From a virus: a stretch of DNA of 48,606 nucleotides. The position numbers and the translations under genes are program-made. The stretch is from IMG/VR virus record IMGVR_UViG_3300023087_000027, positions 1-48,606 of that record; one strand, written 5' to 3'. Shown here in pieces: positions 148 through 41,675 of this stretch. Below the pieces are notes generated by a model. The model was given only the letters and a program-made list of their open reading frames with translations, made no database searches and was not told the origin of the DNA. Position 1 is the stretch's first letter; each line of letters begins with the position of its first letter.

Positions 148-504
148 TCACTCAAGGGATTGGAGAACTGCGAGAACCTTGCGAAGTCGCTTCTCGCCCG
201 TTTCGTTTCGCTCGCCAGCGACATTGGAGTGGAACTCAAAAGTGAGGTCAGCGGTTGGAAGCCATTCGCCCTCAATGACACCGCCCATGCTTCCCTTGCC
301 CCATCGGACATATTTTGGGAAGAGGCCGATGAAAGCATCTCGCTGTTCTTCGTAGCGGAAGGTGAGGCCAAAATCAAGCCAATTGGACTCGCCATCAAGA
401 CAGGCTTGGAATCGGTCAATGACTTGCTCAAGCGTGTAGTCATTTAGTCGGCAGTCAAGGGACACTCGCATGGCTTGGGTGATGTCGGCTATTGTTCGGG
501 ACAT
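148..504 (-). CDS. Unknown protein, 118 aa
   Basis: The chosen start is the ATG at 504 (MSRTIADITQAMRVS), 29 nt downstream of a TTGATAAGGGGG box. The protein is soluble, with no membrane segment or cysteine motif. It has a helical N-terminal half, then aromatic and charged stretches around residues 40-75, and a basic C-terminus (EKRLRKVLAVLQSLE). The same frame stays open upstream to about 1050, which would give a 300-residue protein, but that extension is AT-rich, has an odd composition rich in Asn, His, Cys and Phe, and crosses the promoter, so the short form is preferred. No function can be assigned. Confidence 0.65.
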   Translation of the reverse strand: MSRTIADITQAMRVSLDCRLNDYTLEQVIDRFQACLDGESNWLDFGLTFRYEEQRDAFIGLFPKYVRWGKGSMGGVIEGEWLPTADLTFEFHSNVAGERNETGEKRLRKVLAVLQSLE

Positions 505-520
505 GAATCGCCCAGCGAGT

Positions 521-533
521 TCCCCCTTATCAA
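521..533 (-). promoter_or_regulatory. Class B-like promoter of the 118-aa gene
   Basis: CATTGATAAGGGGGA is placed with its TTGATAA start 29 nt before the ATG at 504. The proximal half matches class B (box followed by GGGG). The upstream partner is degenerate (ATATCAACA). Confidence 0.6.
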
Positions 534-587
534 TGTGTTGATATTGCGATGTCTTGAGATTCCGATTTGACCCCAAAATCATGGTCG

Positions 588-601
588 CTAAATGATTGGA
601 A
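588..601 (+). repeat. 14-nt element shared with the 39.6-kb region
   Basis: CTAAATGATTGGAA here is identical to 39605-39618 in the same orientation. Its core AAATGATTGGAA occurs a third time at 39716-39727. Confidence 0.6.
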
Positions 602-710
602 CTGAATCGGCCAAACCATTGAGTCCGATTTTTCAGAATATCAAGAATCCGCATAATTGTTGCAGAAAAAAACCGATGGACTGCGAGCCTATTGAGCCCG
701 ATATTTTGGA

Positions 711-727
711 AAAGAATCAAACGAACA
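711..727 (-). repeat. 17-nt element inverted relative to 39676-39692
   Basis: Read on the minus strand this is TGTTCGTTTGATTCTTT, identical over 17 nt to the plus strand at 39676-39692. Both copies lie in AT-rich control regions. Confidence 0.6.
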
Positions 728-1019
728 CCCCCCTTGCTACACACACACCTTGTCTTGAGCATCCAAAACCGTGTGATGTCGGAGATGTGCATATAAGCAC
801 CCATAGTGTTCTTCCCGATTCCAAAGTGTGTGTGTCCCATACCCCCTCTTCGTTTGTTTAATTGTTTGAAAGAGAATAAAACATTGATACATTTAAGTGG
901 TGGAATGTGCTGGAGGCATGGTGCGGAAGCATTGATATTCCGAAAAACATAGTGATTTTCGGACTTCTCGCTTGAGAGGATAGTCAGCAAGAAACGAAAA
1001 TGGATATGGCTGTCAATAA

Positions 1020-1298
1020 TCATGGGGGAGGGGTCTGTGCGAATGCCCACACGCGTGTCGCTGTGTTGGTTTGACTAACCCTGCGTGTCCCCACAGAAAC
1101 AACATACCCGTCTGCCTCCAGCGCGTTCATCACCATCGCGACCGCGTTGGCGTGTGGCCTGTGCTTGAATGGAATCGCCTCAAGGACATCGTGGATGGTG
1201 AACTCACCGCCCTGCATGGACTCAATCGTGGTCAGCACTCGGTCAATGGAACGAGCCTGTCGCCAGCGTCTTTCACGGGTCTTCGTGAACGAGTTCAT
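1020..1298 (-). CDS. Winged-helix-like DNA-binding protein, 92 aa
   Basis: The ATG at 1298 (MNSFTKTRERRWRQARS) lies inside the last codons of the upstream gene that ends at 1273, so the two overlap by 26 nt and are probably co-translated. After a basic N-terminus the sequence has an alternating helix pattern (SIDRVLTTIESM, FTIHDVLEAIPF, NAVAMVMNALEADG) followed by a likely beta wing (YVVSVGTRRVSQTN), which is the layout of a winged helix-turn-helix domain. A longer start at 1356 (MGAYESS) is possible. The likely role is a small transcription regulator; the target is unknown. Confidence 0.6.
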   Translation of the reverse strand: MNSFTKTRERRWRQARSIDRVLTTIESMQGGEFTIHDVLEAIPFKHRPHANAVAMVMNALEADGYVVSVGTRRVSQTNTATRVWAFAQTPPP

Positions 1299-1620
1299 CA
1301 CCAACCCACCGATATTCCCTGCGACAACGAGCCTCCTTGACGATTCGTACGCGCCCATCTCGGACAAACGCACGAAGGTGCATGGACAACGACTGAACGC
1401 TGGGCGTGTAAGTGTAGCCACCGTTCATGTGGTCGCACAGGGAACTCGCTGTGAAGTCCCCCAGCACACTCATGGACTTGACCATGTGCCGATACAGGTT
1501 CGCTCGCCTCGTCTTGCGTGAAGCGTTCCGAGCCATGCCCAGCCATGCGATGCCCACCATTATCAAGGCGAGCCAGCCCACGCCCCTGCTGGTCGGGAAT
1601 CCCCGAAGGGAGTCCGTCAT
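1273..1620 (-). CDS. Membrane-anchored winged-helix-like protein, 115 aa
   Basis: The start is set at the ATG at 1620 (MTDSLRGF). One hydrophobic segment at about residues 15-30 (WLALIMVGIAWLGMA) looks like a transmembrane helix or signal anchor. It is followed by a basic stretch (ASRKTRRANLYRHMVKS) and a domain with helix-turn-helix spacing (FTASSLCDHMNGGYTYTPSVQ, then SMHLRAFVRDGRVRIV). The next gene, also winged-helix-like, overlaps its end. A membrane-tethered regulator is one reading; no strong promoter or Shine-Dalgarno site is visible, so the exact start is uncertain. Read-through from the gene ending at 1669 is likely. Confidence 0.6.
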   Translation of the reverse strand: MTDSLRGFPTSRGVGWLALIMVGIAWLGMARNASRKTRRANLYRHMVKSMSVLGDFTASSLCDHMNGGYTYTPSVQSLSMHLRAFVRDGRVRIVKEARCRREYRWVGDELVHEDP

Positions 1621-6918: not shown

Positions 6919-9654
6919 TCACGACAGCAAGCCGAAGTTCTTGAGAGCCGTGATGATTTCACCGATGGACTGCTCAATCGCGATGAACCGAGCATCAAGT
7001 TCAGCGTCAAAGGTTGGGTCGGCTGACGGAGGCATCGGTGGTGGTGGAGGTGCTGGGGCTGTGTACGCGCCCGTGTGGTCAAAGAATGAGGCAGACTGCT
7101 GGCTGACCGCTGTTGCCCCCAAGAAGCCAATCTGCTTCGCCCCTGTTGCCGAGTTCGCATCCCGCTTGAGTTCCAGCAGTTTGTCGTTGGCTGACACCAA
7201 TTGCGTTGCGAGCGAGCCGAAGGCGATGTCCAATTGACCGCCATCACGCTGGCCGACAGACCATAAGGGACTGTCAATTGTGCTTGCGGAGGGTGGTGAT
7301 GTGTTGTCGTTTTGAATGTGAAGGTGGCCGTATTTGTTCATCCGAAGGTTGCCTTCGTCTGCTTGAACACGGAAGGGGAAGTCGCCCGCCCCGACCACAT
7401 GGAGTGGGTTGTCGGGTGCTGTTGTTCCAATCCCAACATCGCCATCCGAGGCAATCGTTAAGCGAGCCTCCACGCCCGAACCATCCCCTGCATTGTTTGT
7501 GCAAAGGTGAATGTCTTTGTTGTAGTTCCCGTTAGCAATCAACAGGTCATTTTGAGCCGAACCCGATACGACAGGCGTTGCTCGGTCAAGGGCAAGATAA
7601 GCCGAATAATTCGGGCTAAATGTCCCGCCATTCGCCTCCACATCACGCAGGTTGAACATCGGCAATTTTGCATCGGTGTCTGCTGAAACGAGAATGCGAG
7701 CGTTGTCGGGGGTTGCTGATGAACCCGATTTGACTTCAAGCAAATGGTCGGATGACCCTGTTGATGACGGGTCTTCAACCAGCAGATTCCCTTTGACATG
7801 AAGCGTTTCGCTTGGCGAGTTTGTCCCAACGCCCAATCGGTTGTTCGCATCATCCCAAAGCAAGTTCGCATCATCGCTGGCGAATCCACCAGCACCATCG
7901 TTGAACTGTATTGAGCCCAATACGCCCGCTGGTGTTCCACCGCTACCTGCGGGCAAATCAACCCAAGACAAAGTTCCAGCACCATCGGTTTGGAGGATTT
8001 GTCCCGTAGCACCATCAACGCGTGGGGCTGTTCCAGCGAAAGTGAGAATCTCCTTCGTTTGACCCCAGCCGTCTTGCACATCTTCCTCGCCACTACGGAA
8101 GAATAGCGGAACTTCATCCACAGACTGCCCACCCGAAGACGCAGACGACCATATTTGATATGCCCGATAATTGTCCGACCAGCCCTTCATCGTGATGACT
8201 GCATCCCAAGAGTTTGGTGAACCTGTGATGTCGTCTGTGAAATCAAATGACACGGTTTTGTCGGGGAACTCGTTGGGGTGAACATCGCCATCATAGCGTG
8301 AATCCCGAATCCGAAGTTCGTTCACACCGCCCTCAATTCCAGCGTTCCCGAATTGGTCAGCGTGTTTCACACCGTAGCCTTTTATCCAATTCTTGACTGC
8401 TGTGAAGGTGATTTTTCGGTTCGTGCCGTTAGCCCCGTCATCAAGCAGAAGAAGGTCGGCATCAGCGATTGCCGTGTTCGCTGGGAGGGCTGAAATGTCA
8501 ATCGTGTTGCCGTCAGCCCCATCAGTTCCATCAGCCCCATCTGCCCCATCTGCCCCCGCTGGAATCGCGAAGTCCAGCACGACCGCTGTGGGCGTTCCCG
8601 AATTGCTGACTGTCGCAGACGACCCAGCCACACCTGTGCTGACTGTCCCGATTGTGATGGTTGGGGTTGCCCCATCAGCACCATCAGCACCAGCCGAGCC
8701 TGTTGCACCCGTAGCACCTGTCGCGCCCGTGTCGCCTCTTGGGATGGTGAAATCCAAGACGACCGCTGACGATGTTCCGCTGTTCACAACGGTCGCAGAA
8801 CTCCCCGCTGACCCTGTGCTGACTGTTCCAACAGCCACAGTCGGTGAAACCCCGTCTGCCCCATCTGCCCCATCTGCACCATCAACCCCGTTTGTTCCAT
8901 TCGTTCCATTCGTGCCGTCTGCACCTCTCGGAATCGTGAAGTCAAAGACAGCGGAACTCGCAGTTCCCGAATTGACAACCGTTGCTGACGAACCTGCTGA
9001 CCCTGTGGACACCGTTCCGACTGCGATGGTTGCCGATATGCCGTCTGCACCATCAGCCCCGTCTGCCCCGTCTGCACCAGCAGAACCCGTTGCACCTGTC
9101 GCACCTGTCGCACCTGTCGCACCCGTAGCCCCTGCTGGAATCGTGAAGTCCAGCACCACAGCAGATGAAGTCCCGCTGTTGCTGACCGTTGCACTTGACC
9201 CAGCCGAGCCCGTTGAAACTGTCCCGATTGTGATGGTCGCTGGCGAACCGTCTGCACCGTCTTGTCCGTCAGCACCGTTAGTCCCATTCGCACCATCGCT
9301 TCCGTTTGCACCCGACGCGCCCGTGTCGCCTCTCGGAATGTTGAGGTTGAGTTTGCGAGTTCCATCGGTCGCTGTCGTGATGGTCGCTGACGCACCAGCA
9401 GAAGCCGAAACGGTGTTCACATTCCCAATCTCCAAGTCGGCTGTTCCTGTGCCTGTGGCGGTCGTTGTAGTGGTCGTTGTCGTGGTTGTACGCGGGTCGC
9501 GGAACTCGTCATCAAGGTCGCCCAAGACGATGGGGACACCGCCCGATTGCTGTTGCACCAGCCGAGCGAGTTCCCTGTATGTCGTGTTCTTTCGCACCAC
9601 GACATCGGGCGCGTTGGTCGCCAACCAATCTCGGAGTTCTTGCTCGCGACCCAT
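6919..9654 (-). CDS. Collagen-like tail fibre protein, 911 aa
   Basis: This is a virion fibre. The ATG at 9654 overlaps the upstream stop (TGATG). An N-terminal helical region (residues 1-55) is followed by a run of ten threonines (56-65), then four close and one divergent copies of a beta module (GTVSTGSAGSSATV...LDFTIP) alternating with collagen-like Gly-X-Y blocks (GATGATGATG, GADGADGADG) at residues 78-383. Next come segments of the fibre type (RLGVGTNSPSETLHVKG and GDVGIGTTAPDNPLHVVG), which phage tail proteins use in trimeric beta structures. The end is a proline-rich hinge (APAPPPPPMPP) and a helical segment (RFIAIEQSIGEIITALKNF) that could trimerise. It probably binds host cells. Confidence 0.88.
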   Translation of the reverse strand: MGREQELRDWLATNAPDVVVRKNTTYRELARLVQQQSGGVPIVLGDLDDEFRDPRTTTTTTTTTTATGTGTADLEIGNVNTVSASAGASATITTATDGTRKLNLNIPRGDTGASGANGSDGANGTNGADGQDGADGSPATITIGTVSTGSAGSSATVSNSGTSSAVVLDFTIPAGATGATGATGATGATGSAGADGADGADGADGISATIAVGTVSTGSAGSSATVVNSGTASSAVFDFTIPRGADGTNGTNGTNGVDGADGADGADGVSPTVAVGTVSTGSAGSSATVVNSGTSSAVVLDFTIPRGDTGATGATGATGSAGADGADGATPTITIGTVSTGVAGSSATVSNSGTPTAVVLDFAIPAGADGADGADGTDGADGNTIDISALPANTAIADADLLLLDDGANGTNRKITFTAVKNWIKGYGVKHADQFGNAGIEGGVNELRIRDSRYDGDVHPNEFPDKTVSFDFTDDITGSPNSWDAVITMKGWSDNYRAYQIWSSASSGGQSVDEVPLFFRSGEEDVQDGWGQTKEILTFAGTAPRVDGATGQILQTDGAGTLSWVDLPAGSGGTPAGVLGSIQFNDGAGGFASDDANLLWDDANNRLGVGTNSPSETLHVKGNLLVEDPSSTGSSDHLLEVKSGSSATPDNARILVSADTDAKLPMFNLRDVEANGGTFSPNYSAYLALDRATPVVSGSAQNDLLIANGNYNKDIHLCTNNAGDGSGVEARLTIASDGDVGIGTTAPDNPLHVVGAGDFPFRVQADEGNLRMNKYGHLHIQNDNTSPPSASTIDSPLWSVGQRDGGQLDIAFGSLATQLVSANDKLLELKRDANSATGAKQIGFLGATAVSQQSASFFDHTGAYTAPAPPPPPMPPSADPTFDAELDARFIAIEQSIGEIITALKNFGLLS
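8508..9423 (-). repeat. Beta-module plus collagen repeats in the fibre gene
   Basis: Four close copies and one divergent copy of a roughly 50-60 codon unit lie in tandem. Each unit has a GTVSTG-type beta part and a Gly-X-Y part of variable length. Such arrays recombine easily, so copy number may differ between relatives. Confidence 0.8.
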
Positions 9655-9941
9655 CACTTCACTTCCCAAACTTCCCAGCGTTCACCCGAACCAGCCGTGA
9701 ACTCCATCAACGGCTTATCGGTTTCAATATCCTCGTTGCGTGGCGATGTCAGTTTGAACATGAAATCCATCGGGTCGGGACAGCCATCTGCCTTGATTTG
9801 AAATGGAACGAGGTCGCCATTTTGAACCAGCCAATCGTTGCCCTGCTCAATCATTGAGCCAACGGCTTTGAGTCGTTCATTGAATACGAGCATGACGACC
9901 GAATCGTTGAGAAGTTTGACCTTAGATGCCCATGCAATCAA
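9654..9941 (-). CDS. Unknown structural-operon protein, 95 aa
   Basis: A TTG at 9941 overlaps the stop of the upstream gene (TTGA) and has GGGAGGA 6 nt before it, so it is preferred to a second TTG at 9947. The product (IAWASKVKLLNDSVVMLVF...) looks beta-rich, with FMFKLTSPRNEDIETDKPLMEF and a tryptophan-rich end (GERWEVWEVK). It lies directly before the fibre gene with a TGATG overlap, so a role in fibre attachment, assembly or chaperoning is possible but unproven. Confidence 0.65.
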   Translation of the reverse strand: MIAWASKVKLLNDSVVMLVFNERLKAVGSMIEQGNDWLVQNGDLVPFQIKADGCPDPMDFMFKLTSPRNEDIETDKPLMEFTAGSGERWEVWEVK

Positions 9942-13239: not shown

Positions 13240-15444
13240 TCATCGCATGGCGCGAACCATTTGCTTGAACACAGGCAACACAGCCTTCGCCAAGTCGCTT
13301 GCATCACAGGATGCGGAGTGAGGATAGAACTTGCTGGTGTCCATGCCGTCAATGCCGATGGAGAACAGACCGACTTCCTTTGGTGCTTCTGCAACGACCT
13401 TGAGCAAGTGTTCTTCCTCGTTCATGTCGGCTGGGTGAGCCCCACTTGGTTGTCCATCGGAGATGACGAACAGCACCTTCTTGCCGTTGAATTGCATCAA
13501 GCGGTTCAAGCACCACTCAACAGCGTAGCCATCACCGTTGGATGAACCCGTGAACGGCATAGCGATTGCCGACTTGCTGAATTGGTTGATGGGGGACATC
13601 ATTGGCTTGCGAACACGGATGGTGGTGTCGGAGAAGGAAGAGTGGAAGTCCACGACTTCAACATTCCAGCCGATTGAATCCATCACTTCGGTCAAGACCA
13701 CGCCAGCCTCCGAAGCCATCTGTGCGCGGTGTCCACTCATTGAACCGCTTGCGTCAATGAGGATGAGTGCGTTCACCTGTGCATCGGACTCTTCGTTTCG
13801 CTTGCGGAAGACACGGTTGCTGGTTTGGCTGTATGAGAGTCTGCGAGAGTCAATGCGACCCTTCTTGGTTGCTCGTTCCCACTTGCCCTGTGGGTCTTTC
13901 AAGAGCCTCTTCATTTGGTTGCTCATGGTGGTGATTTGGGCTCGGTTCTGTCCCTTGACCACATCGTAGTGAATGTTGTATGTAGCGATGTTGCGTTCTT
14001 CATATTCAGCCATGAACTCGGAAGCACCGATGACTTTGACGAGGCTGTATCGGTCATTCTCATCGTATGAGCCTTCAATGTCTGCGGAACTGACTGCATC
14101 CAATTCGCCAGCCTCCTGTGCTTCGGACTTGAGTGCTTCAAGTTCTTCGGCTTCAAGGAGGTCTTGGAGTTCAACACCCAAGTCGTCATCGTATGGGGTT
14201 TCGCCTTCATGCTCGCCACCTTCATCGGAGTTCTGTGGAGTGCCGTCTTGAGCATCGCCCTCTTGAGCGTCAGCGTCAGCGTCAGCATCGGAAGGAGAGC
14301 CGTTGTCGCAATCGGAATCGGAGTCGCCATCGGTGTCCATGTCCATGTTGATGTCCATGCCTTCACCATCGCTTCCCTCGCCCTCAATCTCGCCTTCAAT
14401 GTCGCCATCCTCGTCTTCAACGAAGGAATCGCCAGCACCAGCGTCATCGCCAGCATCGCTGTTTTGGCCGTTCTCGCCCTCTCCAGCGTCTTCCTCGCCT
14501 TCGGTGGTGTCTTGACCCTCCCCAGCGTTTTCTTCGCTCTCCTGTGCGTTCTGTGCGTCTTCCTGTGCCTTCTTGGACTCTTGAGCCATTTTCTCGGCCT
14601 GTTCCTTGAGTTCCTTGAATCGTTGGCGAGGTGCTTCTTCCACCTTCGCCTCTCGCTTCTTCTGCTCTTGAGCCATGCGTTCAATCTCTTCGGGGCTCAT
14701 GTCATCCATCATCATGCCTTCACCGTCTTCGCCCTGTGGGATGCCCGTCATGTCGTCATCACCAGCGGTTGCTGGGAAGTGTTCACGGAACACGGCCAAG
14801 ACCTTCTTGGCTGACTTGATGACCGAATCGGTCGTTGGTTGGCTGATAGCATTGACCATGTGAGTGCGAACCTCATCCATGTAGTCGCAGACCAATGGGG
14901 AGTGAGGGAAGAAGTGTGCTTCACGGCTGATGGCTTCGGTCATCATGGCTACGATGGAAGCACGACCAGCGTTGGACTCGTCAATGGTTTTGGTTGCCCA
15001 CATCTCACGGTGCTTGACCATGAAAATCTCTTGGGTTGCGTCAAGACGCTTCCCGCTTCCAGCGAAGTCCTGTGCGAGCAAGTGGTTCACACGGGCATCC
15101 TCAAGAATGTTCACGAAGTCGTGAAGCAAGCGGTCTTCCTCGCCAGCCTTGATTTTGTCGCCAACACGCTTCCATGCACCGAAGTCGGTGTAGCGGAGAT
15201 GACCCGCCGCCTCATGTGCGAGGATGGCTTCTTGCATCATCAAGTTCTGTCGTGGGTCTTCGCTCATGGTTTCGGGAATCCACACTCGTTGTCCGTCTGT
15301 GCAAGCACGACCCTGTGGACACAGGATGACTTGCTTGACAGGCGTTCCAACCTTCTCCAATTCGCCCGATAGCACACGGGCTACACGGGTCAAGGTTCGG
15401 ACACGGGCTTGGGCTCGTAGTCGTGGCGATATTGCTCGGCTCAT
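13240..15444 (-). CDS. CobT-like VWA protein with HExxxH motif, 734 aa
   Basis: The C-terminal third is a von Willebrand A domain with a complete metal-ion-dependent adhesion site: DASGSMSG near residue 565, a TGSSNGDG loop, and VISDGQPSG. The N-terminal third carries HEAAGH (residues 77-82) in the context AILAHEAAGHLRYTDF, as in CobT-like and other VWA proteins with a metalloprotease-like motif. Between them is a helical EK-rich part and a very acidic linker (about residues 308-425, rich in Asp, Glu, Gly and Ser). VWA proteins of this type act with a MoxR/CobS ATPase to remodel or load metal into a target, and a MoxR gene lies at 16649-17818. The start at 15444 (MSRAISPRLR) is 29 nt from a class C TATA box. 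Confidence 0.85.
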   Translation of the reverse strand: MSRAISPRLRAQARVRTLTRVARVLSGELEKVGTPVKQVILCPQGRACTDGQRVWIPETMSEDPRQNLMMQEAILAHEAAGHLRYTDFGAWKRVGDKIKAGEEDRLLHDFVNILEDARVNHLLAQDFAGSGKRLDATQEIFMVKHREMWATKTIDESNAGRASIVAMMTEAISREAHFFPHSPLVCDYMDEVRTHMVNAISQPTTDSVIKSAKKVLAVFREHFPATAGDDDMTGIPQGEDGEGMMMDDMSPEEIERMAQEQKKREAKVEEAPRQRFKELKEQAEKMAQESKKAQEDAQNAQESEENAGEGQDTTEGEEDAGEGENGQNSDAGDDAGAGDSFVEDEDGDIEGEIEGEGSDGEGMDINMDMDTDGDSDSDCDNGSPSDADADADAQEGDAQDGTPQNSDEGGEHEGETPYDDDLGVELQDLLEAEELEALKSEAQEAGELDAVSSADIEGSYDENDRYSLVKVIGASEFMAEYEERNIATYNIHYDVVKGQNRAQITTMSNQMKRLLKDPQGKWERATKKGRIDSRRLSYSQTSNRVFRKRNEESDAQVNALILIDASGSMSGHRAQMASEAGVVLTEVMDSIGWNVEVVDFHSSFSDTTIRVRKPMMSPINQFSKSAIAMPFTGSSNGDGYAVEWCLNRLMQFNGKKVLFVISDGQPSGAHPADMNEEEHLLKVVAEAPKEVGLFSIGIDGMDTSKFYPHSASCDASDLAKAVLPVFKQMVRAMR

Positions 15445-15465
15445 ACCCCTCCCAGCCCGTTGCAC

Positions 15466-15502
15466 CATATAAACACTTCCACTTATGGAACTGAACCATT
15501 GA
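15466..15502 (-). promoter_or_regulatory. Class C promoter of the VWA gene
   Basis: On the minus strand TCAATGGTT, then TAAGTGGAAG, then TTTATATG precede the ATG at 15444, with the TATA part starting 29 nt upstream. The block aligns without gaps to the MoxR promoter at 30 of 38 positions (15466-15503 against 17890-17927). Confidence 0.7.
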
Positions 15503-16648: not shown

Positions 16649-17818
16649 TCAATAATCGCTCAAGCGAGCGCGAGCCACAGCCTTGATTTCATCAATCTCA
16701 TGGGGCTGATAGCGACCAAGCATCACGAACTCAACCATCTCGGTCATGTTGAAGTCAAGGCTGGCTTCCATCATCGCAACCAGCATACGAGTGCTGGTGT
16801 CGGACTCAAGAGTGCCTTCCTTCTTCATTCGGCGGAGGTCGTTGGAGAAGGACACCAATTGGCGAGCGAGGGCGATGTTGTTCACGCCCGACTGCTGACA
16901 GATGACCTTGATTTCCTTCTCTTCGGGAAGGTAGTCCACCTTCATGTTGAGGTCAAAGCGGTCAAGGGTTGCTTGGTTGATGTCCTGTCCACCCGAATAC
17001 CCATCAAGCGGGTTCATGGTGGCGAAGGTGCGGAAGTCAGCGTGAGCCGACACGACTTCGTTGTTGTTGTCCGTCAAGAGCAATTGTCCCGAATCACCGA
17101 CAGCGTTCCATGCGGTCATGATTTCGGGTCGTGCGGAACGGAACTCGTCAAAGATGAGAAGGCAACCGTATCGCATGGCGATTGGAAGCATCCCGTCAAT
17201 CCAAGTCATCTCACCGTTCTTGAGCGTGTTGTAGCCGATGAAGGACTCTTCGGTGAAGCCTTCGGAACAGTTCACACGAAGGACAGGCATACCGACTTCG
17301 GAAGCGAAGGCACGAATGCCCATCGTCTTCCCACAGCCCTTTGCACCGTCAATGGCGACATTCCAGCCGTTCTTGAATGCAACAGCAAACAGACGCATCT
17401 CGTTGCGGTCGGACTCTTCGTATTGGAGAGTTCCGCGTGGGATGATGTATTGCTGGAGGAAGTCGGGATAGTCCGATGGCGAGCGTCGTGGAACGCCATA
17501 GAAGCATCCTTCATCCGTGTTGAAGTCTTGGCTGGTGTCGCGCTGAACGAAGTTCGTTTGAAGGGTGCTGGTGTTGCCGTTCATCATGTCTTCTGCAAGG
17601 CTCACAGTCCACACCATTTTGTCAGCACCGATGGACACACGGGTGATTCCCGCTGATTCCATTCGCTTGCTGTTGAAAGCATTGGACTTCAAGGAAGCGA
17701 TGGTGGTTGAACCCCCTTCGCTCTCGGTCAGTCGTAGCACTTCCTCAAGGTATCGTTCTTCGCTCAATCGGCCACCGTTGATTTCAACGGCATCTCGCAT
17801 ATTCTCAATCATTCCCAT
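16649..17818 (-). CDS. MoxR/CobS-like AAA+ ATPase, 389 aa
   Basis: This is an ATP-dependent remodelling ATPase of the MoxR group. Walker A is GAKGCGKT near residue 157, Walker B is LLIFDEF, sensor 1 is in TFATMNP and the arginine finger in ATLDRFDL; a substrate-loop region FIGYNTLKNGEMTW lies between, as in CobS and MoxR proteins. The N-terminal 130 residues are extra and helical, with NTSTLQTNFVQRD. The start at 17818 (MGMIENMRDAV) has AGGAG 9 nt upstream; ATGs at 17827 and 17812 are less well spaced. MoxR ATPases work with VWA proteins, and the VWA gene is two genes downstream with a nearly identical promoter. Confidence 0.85.
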   Translation of the reverse strand: MGMIENMRDAVEINGGRLSEERYLEEVLRLTESEGGSTTIASLKSNAFNSKRMESAGITRVSIGADKMVWTVSLAEDMMNGNTSTLQTNFVQRDTSQDFNTDEGCFYGVPRRSPSDYPDFLQQYIIPRGTLQYEESDRNEMRLFAVAFKNGWNVAIDGAKGCGKTMGIRAFASEVGMPVLRVNCSEGFTEESFIGYNTLKNGEMTWIDGMLPIAMRYGCLLIFDEFRSARPEIMTAWNAVGDSGQLLLTDNNNEVVSAHADFRTFATMNPLDGYSGGQDINQATLDRFDLNMKVDYLPEEKEIKVICQQSGVNNIALARQLVSFSNDLRRMKKEGTLESDTSTRMLVAMMEASLDFNMTEMVEFVMLGRYQPHEIDEIKAVARARLSDY

Positions 17819-17889
17819 ATTTTTCATCTCCTGTGTTTCGGTTTGGGTGTCGGCTCGTAGTCCGACAAACCATTGTGATACAGCGGTTG

Positions 17890-17927
17890 CATATATACCT
17901 TTCCACTTACAAATCTCAACCATTGAT
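17890..17927 (-). promoter_or_regulatory. Class C promoter of the MoxR gene
   Basis: The minus strand reads TCAATGGTT, TAAGTGGAAAGG, TATATATG. It matches the VWA promoter at 30 of 38 aligned positions. Here the TATA part is about 80 nt before the chosen ATG, so a leader of about 50 nt with a Shine-Dalgarno site is predicted. Confidence 0.65.
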
Positions 17928-17937
17928 ATTTGAGTGG

Positions 17938-18399
17938 TCATGATTCAAAGTGGACATCGTTGATGTGGAGATAGGTCAGCAAGTGGCGGTCAGTCCACGC
18001 TTGAAGCCCTGTTCGCTTCTCGTATCGCGACAGCCTCCGAAGCACCCGTTCCTTGATTCGCTGGCGTTCTTCCTCGCCCCAGCCATTCCATTCTCGGACA
18101 CGCTTCTCCACCAGCCGAACCAGCACATACGCCAATTGGGGTTCATCACCTTCCCACACGGCTTGATACAGCCTGTCAGCGAACTTGGTGGGGTCGGGGT
18201 CATTCAGCATCAAAGCGAATGCTTCGGCTTCCTGTTCCCACAGGGCTTCTTCCCTGCGAAGTTCACGACCAGCGAGGTTCTTATGGACACCGAGCCCTCC
18301 GAGATGCTCGCTGAATATCGCTCGCACTTGATAGTGGCTCAAGCCACAGTTCGTGCGGAGAATCCTCCACGCCTTCGTGTAGTCGCTGGGGCGCGTCAT
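17938..18399 (-). CDS. Unknown protein behind PolB, 153 aa
   Basis: The ATG at 18399 overlaps the PolB stop (ATGA), so the two genes are co-transcribed and probably coupled. The protein (MTRPSDYTKAWRILRTNC) is helical, with a helix-turn-helix-like start (AWRILRTNCGLSHYQVRAIF), an acidic middle, and a basic segment rich in Glu and Arg (ERQRIKERVLRRLSRYEKR). The end is DRHLLTYLHINDVHFES. It may be a polymerase accessory factor, judged by position only. Confidence 0.7.
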   Translation of the reverse strand: MTRPSDYTKAWRILRTNCGLSHYQVRAIFSEHLGGLGVHKNLAGRELRREEALWEQEAEAFALMLNDPDPTKFADRLYQAVWEGDEPQLAYVLVRLVEKRVREWNGWGEEERQRIKERVLRRLSRYEKRTGLQAWTDRHLLTYLHINDVHFES

Positions 18400-22945: not shown

Positions 22946-23343
22946 GACGAATCTTCCTCAATAAATCGCCTTGTCCACTCTTCCGATTCTCGCTTCAAGC
23001 GGGCTGACTGAATTGCATCCAATCCTTCCACATGGAGTTCCTTGAACGGAGAGTCGGCTTGACGCTCGTTCTCGCACTCAACGCATCGGTGTTCCGATTC
23101 CTTGCCGTGTCGTTCAGCACCCATCCTCTCCAGCCGTGAACGCCATGCGTTCCTTGAGTCCTTGCGTGGATAAGCCACGATGATTTTGCATGGCTTGTCG
23201 TGAATCTCGCACTTGCCCCTGTGGATTTGATGACAGGTCTTCGGTTTGTTCGGGAACTCACGCTTCTTCGGGGTCGCCTTGACCTTCTCGGTCTTGGCTG
23301 GTTTGAATCGCTTGCGTTGCTTCTTGCCTGTGTCTTCGGCCAT
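22942..23343 (-). CDS. Basic Cys/His-rich protein, 133 aa
   Basis: The gene starts at the ATG at 23343 (MAEDTGKKQRKRF), overlapping the stop of the glycosyltransferase (TGATG); an ATG one codon earlier is equally possible. The first 35 residues are lysine- and arginine-rich. Then follow CHQIHRGKCEIHDKPCKII and HRCVECEN, which give enough Cys and His ligands for one or two zinc ions; this is the layout of a small HNH-like or zinc-finger protein. No catalytic HNH triad is certain. The end is charged and helical. Confidence 0.6.
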   Translation of the reverse strand: MAEDTGKKQRKRFKPAKTEKVKATPKKREFPNKPKTCHQIHRGKCEIHDKPCKIIVAYPRKDSRNAWRSRLERMGAERHGKESEHRCVECENERQADSPFKELHVEGLDAIQSARLKRESEEWTRRFIEEDSS

Positions 23344-24641
23344 CATTCCATCCCCAGCGGTTTTTGTCGGTCAATCGTTGCTTCAATGAGGTCGTGGAAT
23401 TGCTGGGCGATGATGTCCCATGTCATATTCGCCTCAATAAATTGGCGAGCCTTCTTGCCTTTGGCCTTGCGACCTTTGACATCATGGTGAGCATCTGCAA
23501 TCGCATCAGCGAGTGCTTCAACATCAACCAAGCCCATGTTCACGCCCCACTTCGCACCCGTGATGGTGGTCGCAAGTGGAACGAGCCAGCCCCTCTCGTC
23601 ATCCTCGCCAATCAGTTCGGGCGCGGTTGAGTTATCGGGGAGGATGATTGGAACGCCACAGGACATGGCTTCCACCGATGGAATCCCGAATCCTTCGCCT
23701 CCTGTTGCGAGGACATGGACATCGGACAGGCCATAGAGCGTGGAGAGGTCTTCACGGCTCAATCCATGAAGCGGATTAGCACTCATGTCGGAGAAGCGAA
23801 CATGGCTCTCCAAGCCCTTCTGCTTGACCAATTCGGGCAAGTTCCAGCCACCAAGACTCATGTTGTCAGTCGGGTCGCCACAATGGATGATGAGTCCAGC
23901 GTTGGCTTTGGGATTGCGTTCAATGAAGAGTTTGAAGGCATCCAGCAGACGAGGGATTTGCTTCCTGTTCCCGTTGCGACCAACGGACAGGAACACGGTG
24001 TCCCAAGTGATTCCCAATGCCTGTCGTGCTGATTCCTTCTCGGCAAGGCTTCGTGGTCGGAAGACCTTCTCATCCACGCCATGATGGATTCTCGGCAGTT
24101 CTGCGTTGTTGTAGCGGTCAAGGTCGTCTAAGAGCATCTCCTTCGGTGCTGTGCCGTTCTCGCTGTTGTATTCGGCCACGAAGTCTTGGAAGACCTGCTT
24201 GCCGTAGTCAGCCATGAAGAGTGGAGTGTGGACATTCCCCAAGATTTTCGCCCAAGCGTACGCGATTGGGAAGCCGTCAATCGGGGTATAGGCGATGTAT
24301 GGAATGCGCGCCCTGTTCGTTGAAAGGACAGCATGACCGATGAACCAGCAATCAATCAAAGACAGATACAGGTCGGGCTTGAGTTCGGCCAAGTGCATAT
24401 CCAAGACCGTTGGGGAGTTCGGGTCAGCGGGATTCAGCGGGTCGCCACCGAATCGGTTGAGCCCAGCGTGAACGAGTGTCCAGCCATCGGGGTGGGGGAA
24501 TGGTTCTCCGTTGTAGTCCCAGCCCATCACGAACACTTCATGCCCGTGTGTCTTGATGAGTCTGCTGATGATTTCACGGCTGACAACACCGTAGCCTGTC
24601 GGTCGTGTGGGTTGTTCCGAGCCCCAAAGGATTCTCGCCAT
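23343..24641 (-). CDS. Glycosyltransferase family 4-like, 432 aa
   Basis: This is a GT-B fold glycosyltransferase. The N-terminus (ARILWGSEQPTRPTGYGVV) carries the glycine loop that holds the acceptor side. The C-terminal domain starts at VFLSVGRNGNRKQIPRLLDAF and includes the nucleotide-sugar site with the E-x7-E motif in EGFGIPSVEAMSCGVPI near residue 315. The start at 24641 (MARILWGSEQ) is 30 nt from a class A box, which trims a spurious N-terminal extension of the frame. Viral GT4 enzymes may glycosylate virion proteins, modified DNA bases or host surface sugars. With the methyltransferase in the same promoter class, DNA or virion modification is plausible. Confidence 0.88.
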   Translation of the reverse strand: MARILWGSEQPTRPTGYGVVSREIISRLIKTHGHEVFVMGWDYNGEPFPHPDGWTLVHAGLNRFGGDPLNPADPNSPTVLDMHLAELKPDLYLSLIDCWFIGHAVLSTNRARIPYIAYTPIDGFPIAYAWAKILGNVHTPLFMADYGKQVFQDFVAEYNSENGTAPKEMLLDDLDRYNNAELPRIHHGVDEKVFRPRSLAEKESARQALGITWDTVFLSVGRNGNRKQIPRLLDAFKLFIERNPKANAGLIIHCGDPTDNMSLGGWNLPELVKQKGLESHVRFSDMSANPLHGLSREDLSTLYGLSDVHVLATGGEGFGIPSVEAMSCGVPIILPDNSTAPELIGEDDERGWLVPLATTITGAKWGVNMGLVDVEALADAIADAHHDVKGRKAKGKKARQFIEANMTWDIIAQQFHDLIEATIDRQKPLGME

Positions 24642-24645
24642 GCTC

Positions 24646-24671
24646 GGTGGGTCGTGTCCCACCTTTATGAA
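24646..24671 (-). promoter_or_regulatory. Class A promoter with hairpin
   Basis: TTCATAAAGGTGGG begins 30 nt before the ATG at 24641. GGTGGG and CCCACC (24646-24663) form a 6-bp stem with a 6-nt loop between box and start. Confidence 0.75.
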
Positions 24672-24675
24672 CAGT

Positions 24676-25077
24676 TCAGCAGATGAGGGTGAGGTCTTCT
24701 GCGCGTGTGGCGTTGGTGTATGTGTCGGTTGCTCGGTCAATCGGCTTTGCCCAAAACTCCGAGCCGATGAACACGGTGTCGTTCTCATCAACATAAAAGT
24801 GGGTTTCGGTGAGAGCCGAGAAGTCTGCGAGGGTCTTGATGCCCTTCTTGACATCGGAAGGAGTTCGCCACAGGTCAATGCGAGAGGTGGCGATTCCGCT
24901 GACTGCGGATTTTCCACGAACACCTTTGCCGATGACTCCGATGACATAGGAGTTCCAATCCCATTCGCCACCAAGACGGAGTTCGTATGTTGGCTGGCGA
25001 GAGGAATCCACGCCCTTCTTGATGACAAGGCGGGTATCTGCGGTTGGGACAGGGAGTGTTCCGATGTATTGGCTCAT
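24676..25077 (-). CDS. Unknown protein, 133 aa
   Basis: The ATG at 25077 (MSQYIGTLPVPTADTRLV) is 31 nt from a TTGATATAGGG box. The sequence looks beta-rich (TYELRLGGEWDWNSYVIGVIG; THFYVDENDTVFIGSEFW) with a short basic middle (SRIDLWRTPSDVKKG). It has one cysteine, at the very end. No function is recognised. It is a single-gene unit with a class B-type box. Confidence 0.7.
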   Translation of the reverse strand: MSQYIGTLPVPTADTRLVIKKGVDSSRQPTYELRLGGEWDWNSYVIGVIGKGVRGKSAVSGIATSRIDLWRTPSDVKKGIKTLADFSALTETHFYVDENDTVFIGSEFWAKPIDRATDTYTNATRAEDLTLIC

Positions 25078-30561: not shown

Positions 30562-31451
30562 GCAGACGACTTTTCAACCGCTTGTGCGAATCGTTCTTGC
30601 GTTGGGTTGTCCAACAGGAATGGCTTGCATGAACGGGACTTCTTGACCATCACTTGATGACGCACTTGCAGTTCGCCAGCCTTGATTCGTTGCTGGCTGG
30701 AGAACTCAAGAATCCAATCAAAGAGTGGGTCGGTCATGTCGGGTCGCCCAGCAGACACGGTTATCTCCTTCGCATCGTTTGTTCCGAAGCCTTCGGTTCG
30801 TGTCTTCATGAGGGTCGTGCCGATGAAGTGAGCCCCACACATCTCCGCGCCCATCTTGAGTCGCTCGTATGGTGTGGAGAACAGTTTGTTGATGACTTTG
30901 TATGAGTGCATCTGCCCCTCTTCAAAGGTCGGAAGGGTCTTCTTGCCTTCTCGGAGTGCCTGTTGCTGACGGGACAGAAGCAAGTCTGCCTCGGTCATGC
31001 CGTGAACGGATTCAGCGTAGTGGTTGCGACAGCCCATGTAAAATGCACCCTCGTTCTCCAAGACGACCATGCGAACACCATCGGGGTGTTCCTCTTTGTG
31101 TTGCATCATCAAGTCAAGGAACGCCAGCACCATGTCATTGACATCATCGGGGCGAGAGCAGACCTTTCGCAGAATGCGAGGTCGTAGTTCCGCTGGAACG
31201 ATGGAATCGCGAGCGATGAGGTCGGCTTGACCTTCAAGGTCGCAGTCAATGATGCACAGAAGGGCTTCTTCGGGCTTGAGCCCACTCGCCATGTCCGTGA
31301 ACATCGTGAGGTAAAAGTGGGTCTTCCCAGCACCGCTGAAACCTTGCAGTTTCATGTGCTTGGTTCGGTTGTTCACCATGCTGACACCCGTATCGCACGA
31401 AGCGATGAGGTCTGCGTAGTTTGCCTTCTTCTTGGTTGCTGATTTCGCCAT
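30558..31451 (-). CDS. RecA-like P-loop ATPase (Sak4-type), 297 aa
   Basis: Walker A is GFSGAGKTH (residues 37-45) and Walker B is VRMVVLENEG. A compact RecA-fold core with no extra N-terminal domain fits Sak4-type viral recombinases or RadA-like proteins, which form filaments for single-strand annealing or strand exchange. The end is basic and has KPFLLDNPTQERFAQAV. The start at 31451 (MAKSATKKKANYA) is 30 nt from a class A promoter. The gene lies between an ssDNA-binding candidate and an exonuclease, which supports a role in recombination-dependent replication or repair. Confidence 0.8.
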   Translation of the reverse strand: MAKSATKKKANYADLIASCDTGVSMVNNRTKHMKLQGFSGAGKTHFYLTMFTDMASGLKPEEALLCIIDCDLEGQADLIARDSIVPAELRPRILRKVCSRPDDVNDMVLAFLDLMMQHKEEHPDGVRMVVLENEGAFYMGCRNHYAESVHGMTEADLLLSRQQQALREGKKTLPTFEEGQMHSYKVINKLFSTPYERLKMGAEMCGAHFIGTTLMKTRTEGFGTNDAKEITVSAGRPDMTDPLFDWILEFSSQQRIKAGELQVRHQVMVKKSRSCKPFLLDNPTQERFAQAVEKSSA

Positions 31452-39210: not shown

Positions 39211-39555
39211 TCATTCAATTCCGTATGCCGTTGGGTCGGTTGTCCAACCGCTTGGTGTCCAAAGAGGATAATCGTCATTGAGGTGATATTCCACCATTGA
39301 CTTCGCCATCATGATTGCATGGCTTCGTGTTGGTCGGTGCTGGTGGCGTTCTTTGGGCATGATGTCCATTTCATCGCCTATCGTGATGAGGTTGCCCTTG
39401 AGGTCATAGATTTCAACGACAAAAGTGTGGTATTGGTCTTTGAGGGTGTAGTGGTGAACGCAGTCAGCGAACTTGATGCGACCATACGACACATCACCCT
39501 TCGGGGTTTTGGTCGTAGTCGTGTGATACGACTTCTCACCGTGTTGGCTGGTCAT
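39211..39555 (-). CDS. Unknown protein, 114 aa
   Basis: The ATG at 39555 (MTSQHGEKSYHTTTTK) is 29 nt from a class B promoter. The protein is rich in His and Thr at the start, then beta-like (CVHHYTLKDQYHTFVVEIYDLKG; NLITIGDEMDIM), then has a helix (SHAIMMAKSMVEYHL) and ends WTTDPTAYGIE. It is the first leftward gene from the divergent control region. No family is recognised. Confidence 0.68.
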   Translation of the reverse strand: MTSQHGEKSYHTTTTKTPKGDVSYGRIKFADCVHHYTLKDQYHTFVVEIYDLKGNLITIGDEMDIMPKERHQHRPTRSHAIMMAKSMVEYHLNDDYPLWTPSGWTTDPTAYGIE

Positions 39556-39577
39556 GCCCTGCCCAGCACACACTACC

Positions 39578-39600
39578 TTATCAATGCTTTGCTTCATCAA
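39578..39600 (-). promoter_or_regulatory. Class B double-box promoter, leftward
   Basis: TTGATGA starts at 39600 and TTGATAAGG at 39584, 16 nt apart; the proximal box is 29 nt before the ATG at 39555. Confidence 0.65.
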
Positions 39601-39604
39601 TGTC

Positions 39605-39618
39605 CTAAATGATTGGAA
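39605..39618 (+). repeat. 14-nt element, copy of 588-601
   Basis: CTAAATGATTGGAA is repeated exactly from the left intergenic region. Its core AAATGATTGGAA recurs at 39716-39727, just before the rightward TATA box. Confidence 0.6.
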
Positions 39619-39675
39619 TTGCACCTTCCTTAGAACACACACATATTGACCAAAGTGTATGTCTTTCAGCACCCC

Positions 39676-39692
39676 TGTTCGTTTGATTCTTT
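39676..39692 (+). repeat. 17-nt element, inverted copy of 711-727
   Basis: TGTTCGTTTGATTCTTT matches the minus strand at 711-727 over 17 nt. Confidence 0.6.
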
Positions 39693-39697
39693 GGGGT

Positions 39698-39716
39698 TGT
39701 GTGCCGAAGGCACACA
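39698..39716. other. Perfect hairpin in the divergent region
   Basis: TGTGTGCC and GGCACACA form a perfect 8-bp stem with loop GAA. It lies between two divergent genes, so it is not a terminator. An operator or an origin-associated structure is possible. Confidence 0.6.
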
Positions 39717-39723
39717 AATGATT

Positions 39724-39733
39724 GGAATAAAAA
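39724..39733 (+). promoter_or_regulatory. TATA-like box of the hub gene
   Basis: GGAATAAAAA lies 27-29 nt before the ATG at 39753 and directly follows AAATGATT. It differs from classes A, B and C, which may reflect late expression. Confidence 0.55.
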
Positions 39734-39752
39734 CACTTCGTTCATTGATACG

Positions 39753-41675
39753 ATGTCGGAATCTCAAGTCAATGCTCGCAATATCAAGTCAATGCCCTGC
39801 TCGGAATCTCAACAGTCCCCATCATTCGTCAGCCAATTAAACCGAATGCGTAGTGGGTTGGGTATGGACAGCCAAACGGAACGCTTCCACAGGCTTGTGA
39901 GAGCCCCTGCTGACGCTCAAATCGTCATCAACCCTTCCCAACCCCTGCTGGATGAGATTGAACGGCTTGGAAGCGACCCAAGACGACCGAGAACGGCAAT
40001 CGCTCGGTGGGTGTCAAAGACATGGCTGGAGAACACTCACGAAGCCATACGCAACGAGCCAGCACCAACGCTGGATGCGTTCCACTACGAGAAGGAAGTC
40101 ATGGAACGGCCATCGCATTATCCGACCGATTGGGGCATTGATTTCATCCCGCACCCGACCGACCTTGACGATGGTTGGGAACTTGACCGCCTATCCACCG
40201 CTTGCTACACTTCTTTGACCACACCACGACCGTTTGACCCACACTTGCATGGCGACCTGTCGGCAGAAACGCTGGGCTTCGGGTATCACTACCTGTCCGA
40301 ATCGGGCTTCCCCGACAAATACGACATCGTGAACAGGCGTGGAGGTGGAGGTCGTGGTGGATTCGCCATGACCACAGGTGCAACGGAGGGCGCGTACCCG
40401 ACTTCCATTCTGCCCCAGCCAACATTCAATCTCGGTCGTCTTGGCTTCTCCGATGGAGGCTGGAATCCCGAAGGGCTTCAATGGACAAACCGACCAAAGC
40501 GAATGAGCCTCACGGGTCTTCGCAACGGATGGGCTCACAAGGTATTCTTCGCTCGCTCTCGGAGGGTCATGAATCGCAACCTGTATGGTCGGCTGGCGAG
40601 GGATGAAGCGACTCCACGCGCCCCTGTGGTCGTCATCAACGGCATGACGAACTTGCAGGGCGTGAAGTCCGTGTCGTTCACCCAATCCATGAACGCCCCA
40701 GCACGAATGAACATTGACATCAACAACACAGCAGGGCGAAGGTCGGGGACAATCCGAGAAGGTGATGTTGTCCAAGTGTATGCTTCGCCACGACATTGGG
40801 CAAATCCACCGCTGGTGTTCACAGGATTCGTTTCGGAGGTTATTGAGTCCAATACGAGTTTGGAACTCATCGCTTTGGATTCGCTCGGCTATCTCACACG
40901 GGAAGTGTTGGACTCTCCTGTTGGGTATTATGAGTCGGACTCGGCAACCGTCATCAAAGACATCATCAGCAATTCGGCATACACACCGCCAATCGGTCGC
41001 ATCCTCAACGAGTCGTTTGTGATTCTTCCAGCCGACATGGACTTCGTGGGGAAGACGCGATTGAACGCGATTCAGTCCATCCTGTCCATCATCAATTCAA
41101 CACCGAACTTGGTCGTGTTGAAGGCCGATTCTCACGGGTATCTCGTCATGGAACGACTGCGTGAGGTGGATGATGCAACGGTTGTCCCGCTGGTCGCTGG
41201 AAGGATTCCACGCACCGCTGTCCCACAGGACTTCTATCCAACGATGATTCAGCGTGAAGAGGGTGATACCCACCGCTTCAATGTGGTCAAGGTCAAGAAC
41301 GACAGCAAGGGCATCTCCGTGTCCGTTCCAGCAATCGGCTCGGCGCGATACCCAACCAAGCCCGTTGAGCGTGTGGTTCGTGAGGATTTCATCGCAGACG
41401 AGCATCAAGCCATATTGGTCGGTGAAACCATGCTGGCTTCGCAGGGCGCGTCGCTTGCTCGCTGGGTCGTTGAGGGAATCCCCGAAAGGCTGGACATCTC
41501 GGTTGGTGATGTGATGGAGTTCGCATCCCGTGATGCTGGCCTGTCGGGTCGCCACAGGGTCTTTGATGTCAAGTGGACAATGGACACCAACGGAACGGAG
41601 ATGAGCCTGTCAGTCGGGCGACAAGCACCCGACCCACTTGCTACACTACGAGTCGCCGCTGGGCTGTCCAATTGA
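39753..41675 (+). CDS. Baseplate-hub-like tail protein, 640 aa
   Basis: This is the only clear plus-strand gene. The C-terminal 350 residues follow the pattern of phage tail hub proteins (gpD, XkdQ and gp27-like): VKSVSFTQSMNAPARMNIDINN, then a domain with IREGDVVQVYASP and VFTGFVSEVIE, then ELIALDSLGYLTREVLD, and a last domain with LDISVGDVMEFASRDAG and HRVFDVKWTMD. Such proteins form the ring at the tip of the tail. The N-terminal 290 residues are unusual, with a Gly-rich loop (GGGGRGGFAMTTG). The ATG at 39753 (MSESQVNARNIK) fits a leaderless start. It converges on the 166-aa gene with only 4 nt between stops. Confidence 0.72.
   Translation: MSESQVNARNIKSMPCSESQQSPSFVSQLNRMRSGLGMDSQTERFHRLVRAPADAQIVINPSQPLLDEIERLGSDPRRPRTAIARWVSKTWLENTHEAIRNEPAPTLDAFHYEKEVMERPSHYPTDWGIDFIPHPTDLDDGWELDRLSTACYTSLTTPRPFDPHLHGDLSAETLGFGYHYLSESGFPDKYDIVNRRGGGGRGGFAMTTGATEGAYPTSILPQPTFNLGRLGFSDGGWNPEGLQWTNRPKRMSLTGLRNGWAHKVFFARSRRVMNRNLYGRLARDEATPRAPVVVINGMTNLQGVKSVSFTQSMNAPARMNIDINNTAGRRSGTIREGDVVQVYASPRHWANPPLVFTGFVSEVIESNTSLELIALDSLGYLTREVLDSPVGYYESDSATVIKDIISNSAYTPPIGRILNESFVILPADMDFVGKTRLNAIQSILSIINSTPNLVVLKADSHGYLVMERLREVDDATVVPLVAGRIPRTAVPQDFYPTMIQREEGDTHRFNVVKVKNDSKGISVSVPAIGSARYPTKPVERVVREDFIADEHQAILVGETMLASQGASLARWVVEGIPERLDISVGDVMEFASRDAGLSGRHRVFDVKWTMDTNGTEMSLSVGRQAPDPLATLRVAAGLSN

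Follow-up and report, generated by a model that had tools for sequence, protein, structure and literature searches.

The AT-rich gap at positions 505–1019 of the window (by which we mean the whole 48.6-kb stretch of DNA analysed, the virus contig IMGVR_UViG_3300023087_000027) carries an element that, judging from comparison with its relatives, is real, conserved, non-coding and structured, and we give somewhat better than even chances to the gap being where a lineage of ~80-kb marine tailed viruses has its replication origin. Origin function is suggested by the architecture of the element, its conservation and its melting behaviour: as is looked for in an origin, it is non-coding, conserved across the lineage and adjoined by easily melted DNA.

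The window covers part of a tailed-virus genome of ~80 kb whose replication module is of archaeal type. The near-identical contig G001 (78.3 kb) contains all of it at 99.98% identity (window position p equals oriented G001 position p + 2651), and the relatives G005, G017 and G021 measure 80.6–81.7 kb; because of exact terminal repeats in G017 (91 bp) and G021 (123 bp) and of ends in G005 that overlap over 169 bp at 94.7% identity, these three look complete and circularly permuted. Tailed-virus genes are present (portal, HK97-type capsid, prohead protease and terminase), together with a replication set comprising PolB, the small and large subunits of a clamp loader, an ERCC4/HHH nuclease, a DinG/XPD-like helicase and, with weak matches, a primase-like protein; the matches that cover PolB best are to haloarchaeal tailed viruses. 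Because this PolB, clamp loader, primase-like protein, ERCC4-type nuclease and helicase are encoded, a replication origin is to be expected in these genomes. The lineage consists of marine tailed viruses whose hosts are probably archaea; the analogy of magroviruses (PMC10768690, PMC12999244) makes Poseidoniales (marine group II) a likely host, and a search for PolB among cellular genomes, meant to link virus and host, returned no match. Like the tailed viruses of the Magrovirales and of Poseidoniales, these viruses are marine and tailed and encode PolB, a clamp loader, a primase-like protein and a helicase, whereas Magrovirales, by published description, have 90–110 kb and opposed modules and the present lineage has ~80 kb, nearly all genes on one strand and no MCM over the cut-off (PMC10768690, PMC12999244, PMC13108676). 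Elsewhere in the window, a CobT-like protein (PHROG 17276; 13240–15468, minus strand) lies near a CbbQ/AAA_5-type AAA+ ATPase (16649–17941, minus), a CobS/CobT-like pair in an archaeal-type virus; a group 1 glycosyltransferase matching the GT4-conflict family (23343–25028, minus) is close to the clamp-loader gene; and a long tail-fibre-like protein (6919–9669, minus) has internal DNA repeats at 8.5–9.3 kb and collagen-like/minor-tail matches.

The base composition of the gap is as unusual as the sequence-only reading of this DNA had claimed, with a GC content of 42.7% compared to 53.7% for the whole window. The lowest-GC 515-bp window overall lies at 506–1020, making 505–1019 essentially the minimum, and the second lowest region of that length is 39352–39866. 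Both elements that had been noticed as common to the gap and to the region at 39.6 kb are real, namely a 17-nt inverted match (711–727 and 39676–39692; ~0.003 expected by chance if estimated simply from 4^17) and a direct match of 14 nt, CTAAATGATTGGAA, for which ~0.2 are expected by chance, making it weak alone. The homology of the two regions goes further than these words: a covariance model built from copies of the gap element alone finds the diverged copy at 39.6 kb (copy B; Table 1). The conserved element runs ~14 nt past the right edge first given for the gap, to the G-tract. Compared by BLASTN with 50,697 phage records, the gap gave no match.

A minus frame does stay open through the whole gap, as had also been pointed out: it is stop-free for 171 codons inside the gap (ORF 148–1050), with P = 0.005 in dinucleotide shuffles, which is unusual but not extreme. 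This openness could mean that the 148–504 gene has a degraded or variable extension at its N terminus, a reading to which we attach very little credence. Four relatives have stops in each minus frame of their homologous gap, on which ground a coding gap was rejected; the extra codons have no protein or family match, and a promoter-like motif, CATTGATAAGG, is positioned for ATG 504. The degraded or variable gene suggested earlier was thus not sustained. Since this copy of CATTGATAAGG stands 20 nt before ATG 504, the gene is 148–504; its 118-aa product has no family match and was found only in G001. At most copies of CATTGATAAGG in G001, G005, G021 and G022 the distance to the ATG is 20–22 nt, as would be expected in archaea for a TATA-type element serving a leaderless mRNA, and the motif is apparently a leaderless-mRNA promoter used across the virus lineage. 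G001 has it at nine further sites besides the one in the gap.

Table 1. Features of the gap, its flanks and the 39.6-kb region (window coordinates)
Feature	Position	Strand	Remarks
Downstream gene, 118 aa, function unassigned	148..504	-	start is ATG 504; motif 20 nt upstream
Promoter-like motif CATTGATAAGG of the ATG 504 gene	525..535	-	leaderless archaeal-type spacing
14-nt repeat CTAAATGATTGGAA	588..601	+	second copy 39605-39618; AATGATTGGAA variants recur near relatives' elements
Outer stem 5' arm GAATCAAACGAA	714..725	+	pairs with 849-859; 94.5% of cells paired, 5 species
C-run, 5' side of internal loop	728..733	+	G-run on minus strand; kept in 5/5 close relatives
Inner stem 5' arm ACACACACAC	739..748	+	conserved family-wide
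Inner stem 3' arm GTGTGTGTGT	826..835	+	conserved family-wide
C-run, 3' side of internal loop	842..846	+	
AT-rich least-stable tract, candidate DNA unwinding element	846..905	strand-neutral	nearest-neighbour stability
Outer stem 3' arm TTCGTTTGTTT	849..859	+	nearly invariant
Conserved block CATTGATATTCCGAAAAACATAGTGATTTTC	930..960	strand-neutral	full block in 3/5 aligned species; AAAAA(C/A)ATA core in 5/5
G-tract GGGGGAGGGG, far edge of element	1024..1033	+	G-tract in place in the other 4 close relatives; also in G016, G019
Diverged second copy B	39609..39689	+	covariance model, local E 8e-4; upstream of helicase gene in relatives
GC-rich hairpin TTGTGTGCC-GAA-GGCACACAA beside copy B	39697..39717	strand-neutral	same place, other sequence in relatives

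The element in the gap (copy A) reads, on the plus strand, as a GAATCAAACGAA arm, a C-run, (AC)n, a variable loop, (GT)n, CCCATACCCC, TTCGTTTGTTTAATT, the AT-rich tract, a CATTGATATTC...AAAAACATAGTG block and the G-tract, with the arms making up an outer stem and an inner (AC)n/(GT)n stem separated by C-rich internal loops. Five close species (the window/G001, G005, G021, G022 and G023) carry it between the P0004 gene and the terminase module, with ~95% of their pair cells occupied by standard pairs. Where only one side of a stem has changed among them, the plus strand can in most cases still pair through G-U; this strand also folds better than its complement, and both observations would suit a structured non-coding plus-strand RNA, transcribed against the direction of the genes. 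We nonetheless consider such an RNA unlikely, given that no covariation in the stems exceeded shuffled controls in the five close sequences (a small set), that both strands fold about equally in distant relatives, as expected of a DNA palindrome, and that an Rfam search with the element gave no match. A small protein without family match is encoded at 1020–1358 (minus strand), its 3' end overlapping the G-tract of the element, and has no counterpart at the same place in G005.

The covariance model R1, built from the five close sequences, found sites in distant relatives showing 51–55% PolB identity (G016, E 0.006; G017, 0.0095; G019, 0.024; weaker in G006, G018 and G020), those of G016 and G018 falling within the longest and second-longest ORF-free runs of their genomes. 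By motif scan, one site was present in each of the twelve species-level genomes whose contigs reach the region, and no copy was detected in the incomplete contigs G007 and G011. The core in distant relatives is ACACACACACCTT-CCCCC-TTGTGTGTGTGTCCCCCC followed by almost pure A+T and then, in G016 and G019, by GGGTAGGGGTGGGGGG, and the outer stem is rebuilt from other sequence (for example, TAAATTAATT/AATTAATTTA in G016). Folding z-scores of the stem-loop were about -3 to -5.5 in G016, G017, G018, G019 and L063, with outer stems unrelated in sequence; such different outer stems support pairing, be it in RNA or in DNA. Matches of two core patterns among 2.9 million viral contigs were confined to members of the lineage, and the first pattern was absent from 85,000 cellular genomes; as the patterns were derived from lineage members, these searches are informative only as absence elsewhere. 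Gene neighbourhoods of the element are rearranged across the lineage: in G016, G018 and G019 it has PolB/RFC nearby, together with some of the same small-gene block, and in G020 it is turned round with respect to PolB.

Quantitatively, the case for an unwinding element is strongest in the melting rank. By nearest-neighbour stability, the AT tract beside the stem-loop is the least stable 60-bp window in nine of 11 contigs, and the second least stable in G001 and G017.

R1 also found copy B, in four species (the window, G005, G021 and G022). In close relatives A precedes the structural module and B the helicase/replication module, and their separation, 46–54% of the genome in three near-complete genomes, may be a by-product of module size. 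This placement speaks for the main rival to an origin, transcription control, in which A would be terminator and insulator of the upstream tail-fibre/P0004 unit and would provide operators and a promoter for the late terminase–capsid–tail unit, with B acting likewise for the replication unit. We regard this as possible, though on balance not what we expect: the CATTGATAAGG motif at the left edge and the T-rich stretches that flank the element on the coding strand are consistent with it, but the three distant relatives with the element near PolB/RFC keep the structure without its heading the terminase module, the helicase gene of distant relatives is without copy B, and a promoter requires neither the lowest duplex stability nor a G-tract or a 100-bp two-tier stem-loop. 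GC-rich hairpins with differing stems occur at the same place beside A and B (Table 1 for the window; 30793–30815 in G005, which is 10793–10815 in L019), followed by TAATGATT-like sequence. As intrinsic terminators these hairpins were rejected, since no T-run follows them and copy A of the window has none. The main plus-strand gene of the window (39699–41675, 658 aa) has its G005 homologue at 39847–41658 on the minus strand, and the 39699–41675 segment is therefore inverted.

AT-rich intergenic hairpins can serve transcription or packaging as well, which counts against reading the element as an origin. A packaging (pac) site for the terminase strikes us as quite improbable, however: the element does stand upstream of the terminase module in close relatives, and the contigs look circularly permuted, but it is ~5 kb from terL in G005, G021 and G022 and not before terL in G016 and G018, and terS was not identified.

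If the element is an origin, an initiator, virus-encoded or from the host, would recognise or extrude the stem-loop, whereupon the AT tract would melt and the replication proteins of the virus (PolB, clamp loader, primase, helicase) would be loaded there; copy B, which precedes the helicase gene, may act as a secondary origin or control site. The sequence-only reading had seen a possible origin or control region in the gap, and this is supported by conserved non-coding structure that adjoins the least stable DNA in almost all of the contigs tested, but not by GC skew. The plot that it proposed, over near-complete genomes, has no extreme at the gap, and skew in G001, G005, G021 and G017 has none at A or B, the detrended extremes of the first three lying elsewhere, a weak test in a lytic virus whose genes are nearly one-sided; a skew switch at the site is not a strictly defining feature of origins.

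Archaeal origins are described as having recognition repeats on either side of an AT-rich unwinding element (PMC5333045), for which repeats the full ORB consensus is CTTCCAGTGGAAACGAAAGGGGT (PMC4153887). Like an archaeal oriC (ORB, Orc1/Cdc6), the virus element is intergenic and has a candidate AT-rich unwinding tract beside inverted sequence elements, and the 3' half of the ORB consensus is resembled by its minus-strand words AAACRAA-N0-3-GGGGT, which among the genomes examined are confined to copies A and B. Unlike archaeal ORB origins, A and B do not show the full consensus with its TTCCAGTGGAA dyad, the best full-consensus sites in a scan falling outside both copies. Nor, in the six viruses tested, was an orc1/cdc6 gene found adjoining the element, and neither Cdc6_C (Orc1/Cdc6) nor MCM had a match over the cut-off in them. 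The initiator of the element was not identified, because Orc1/Cdc6 and MCM stayed below the cut-off and A and B depart from the ORB consensus. Some plasmids and DNA viruses have stem-loop/AT-rich origins with an initiator of their own. The virus element is comparable in that its palindrome could extrude as a cruciform, lies beside easily melted DNA and is single copy family-wide, and differs in that no initiator gene was identified in these viruses. To our knowledge, no described origin matches a two-tier (AC)n/(GT)n stem with C-rich internal loops, and a literature search on archaeal tailed viruses yielded no description of a replication origin. The G-runs of the stem-loop are on the gene-coding strand in both A and B. 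It is conceivable, if doubtful, that the element represents a new type of viral origin, at which a G-rich transcript or a G-quadruplex/R-loop would prime synthesis at the two-tier stem-loop without an Orc1-type initiator, the second copy lying about half a genome away in the three near-complete genomes.

A structure present once per genome throughout the lineage, at the genome's melting minimum, offers a concrete candidate site for the start of replication in uncultured viruses. Moreover, the element assists the search for the missing initiator and is a marker by which members of the lineage can be recognised and oriented in metagenomes.
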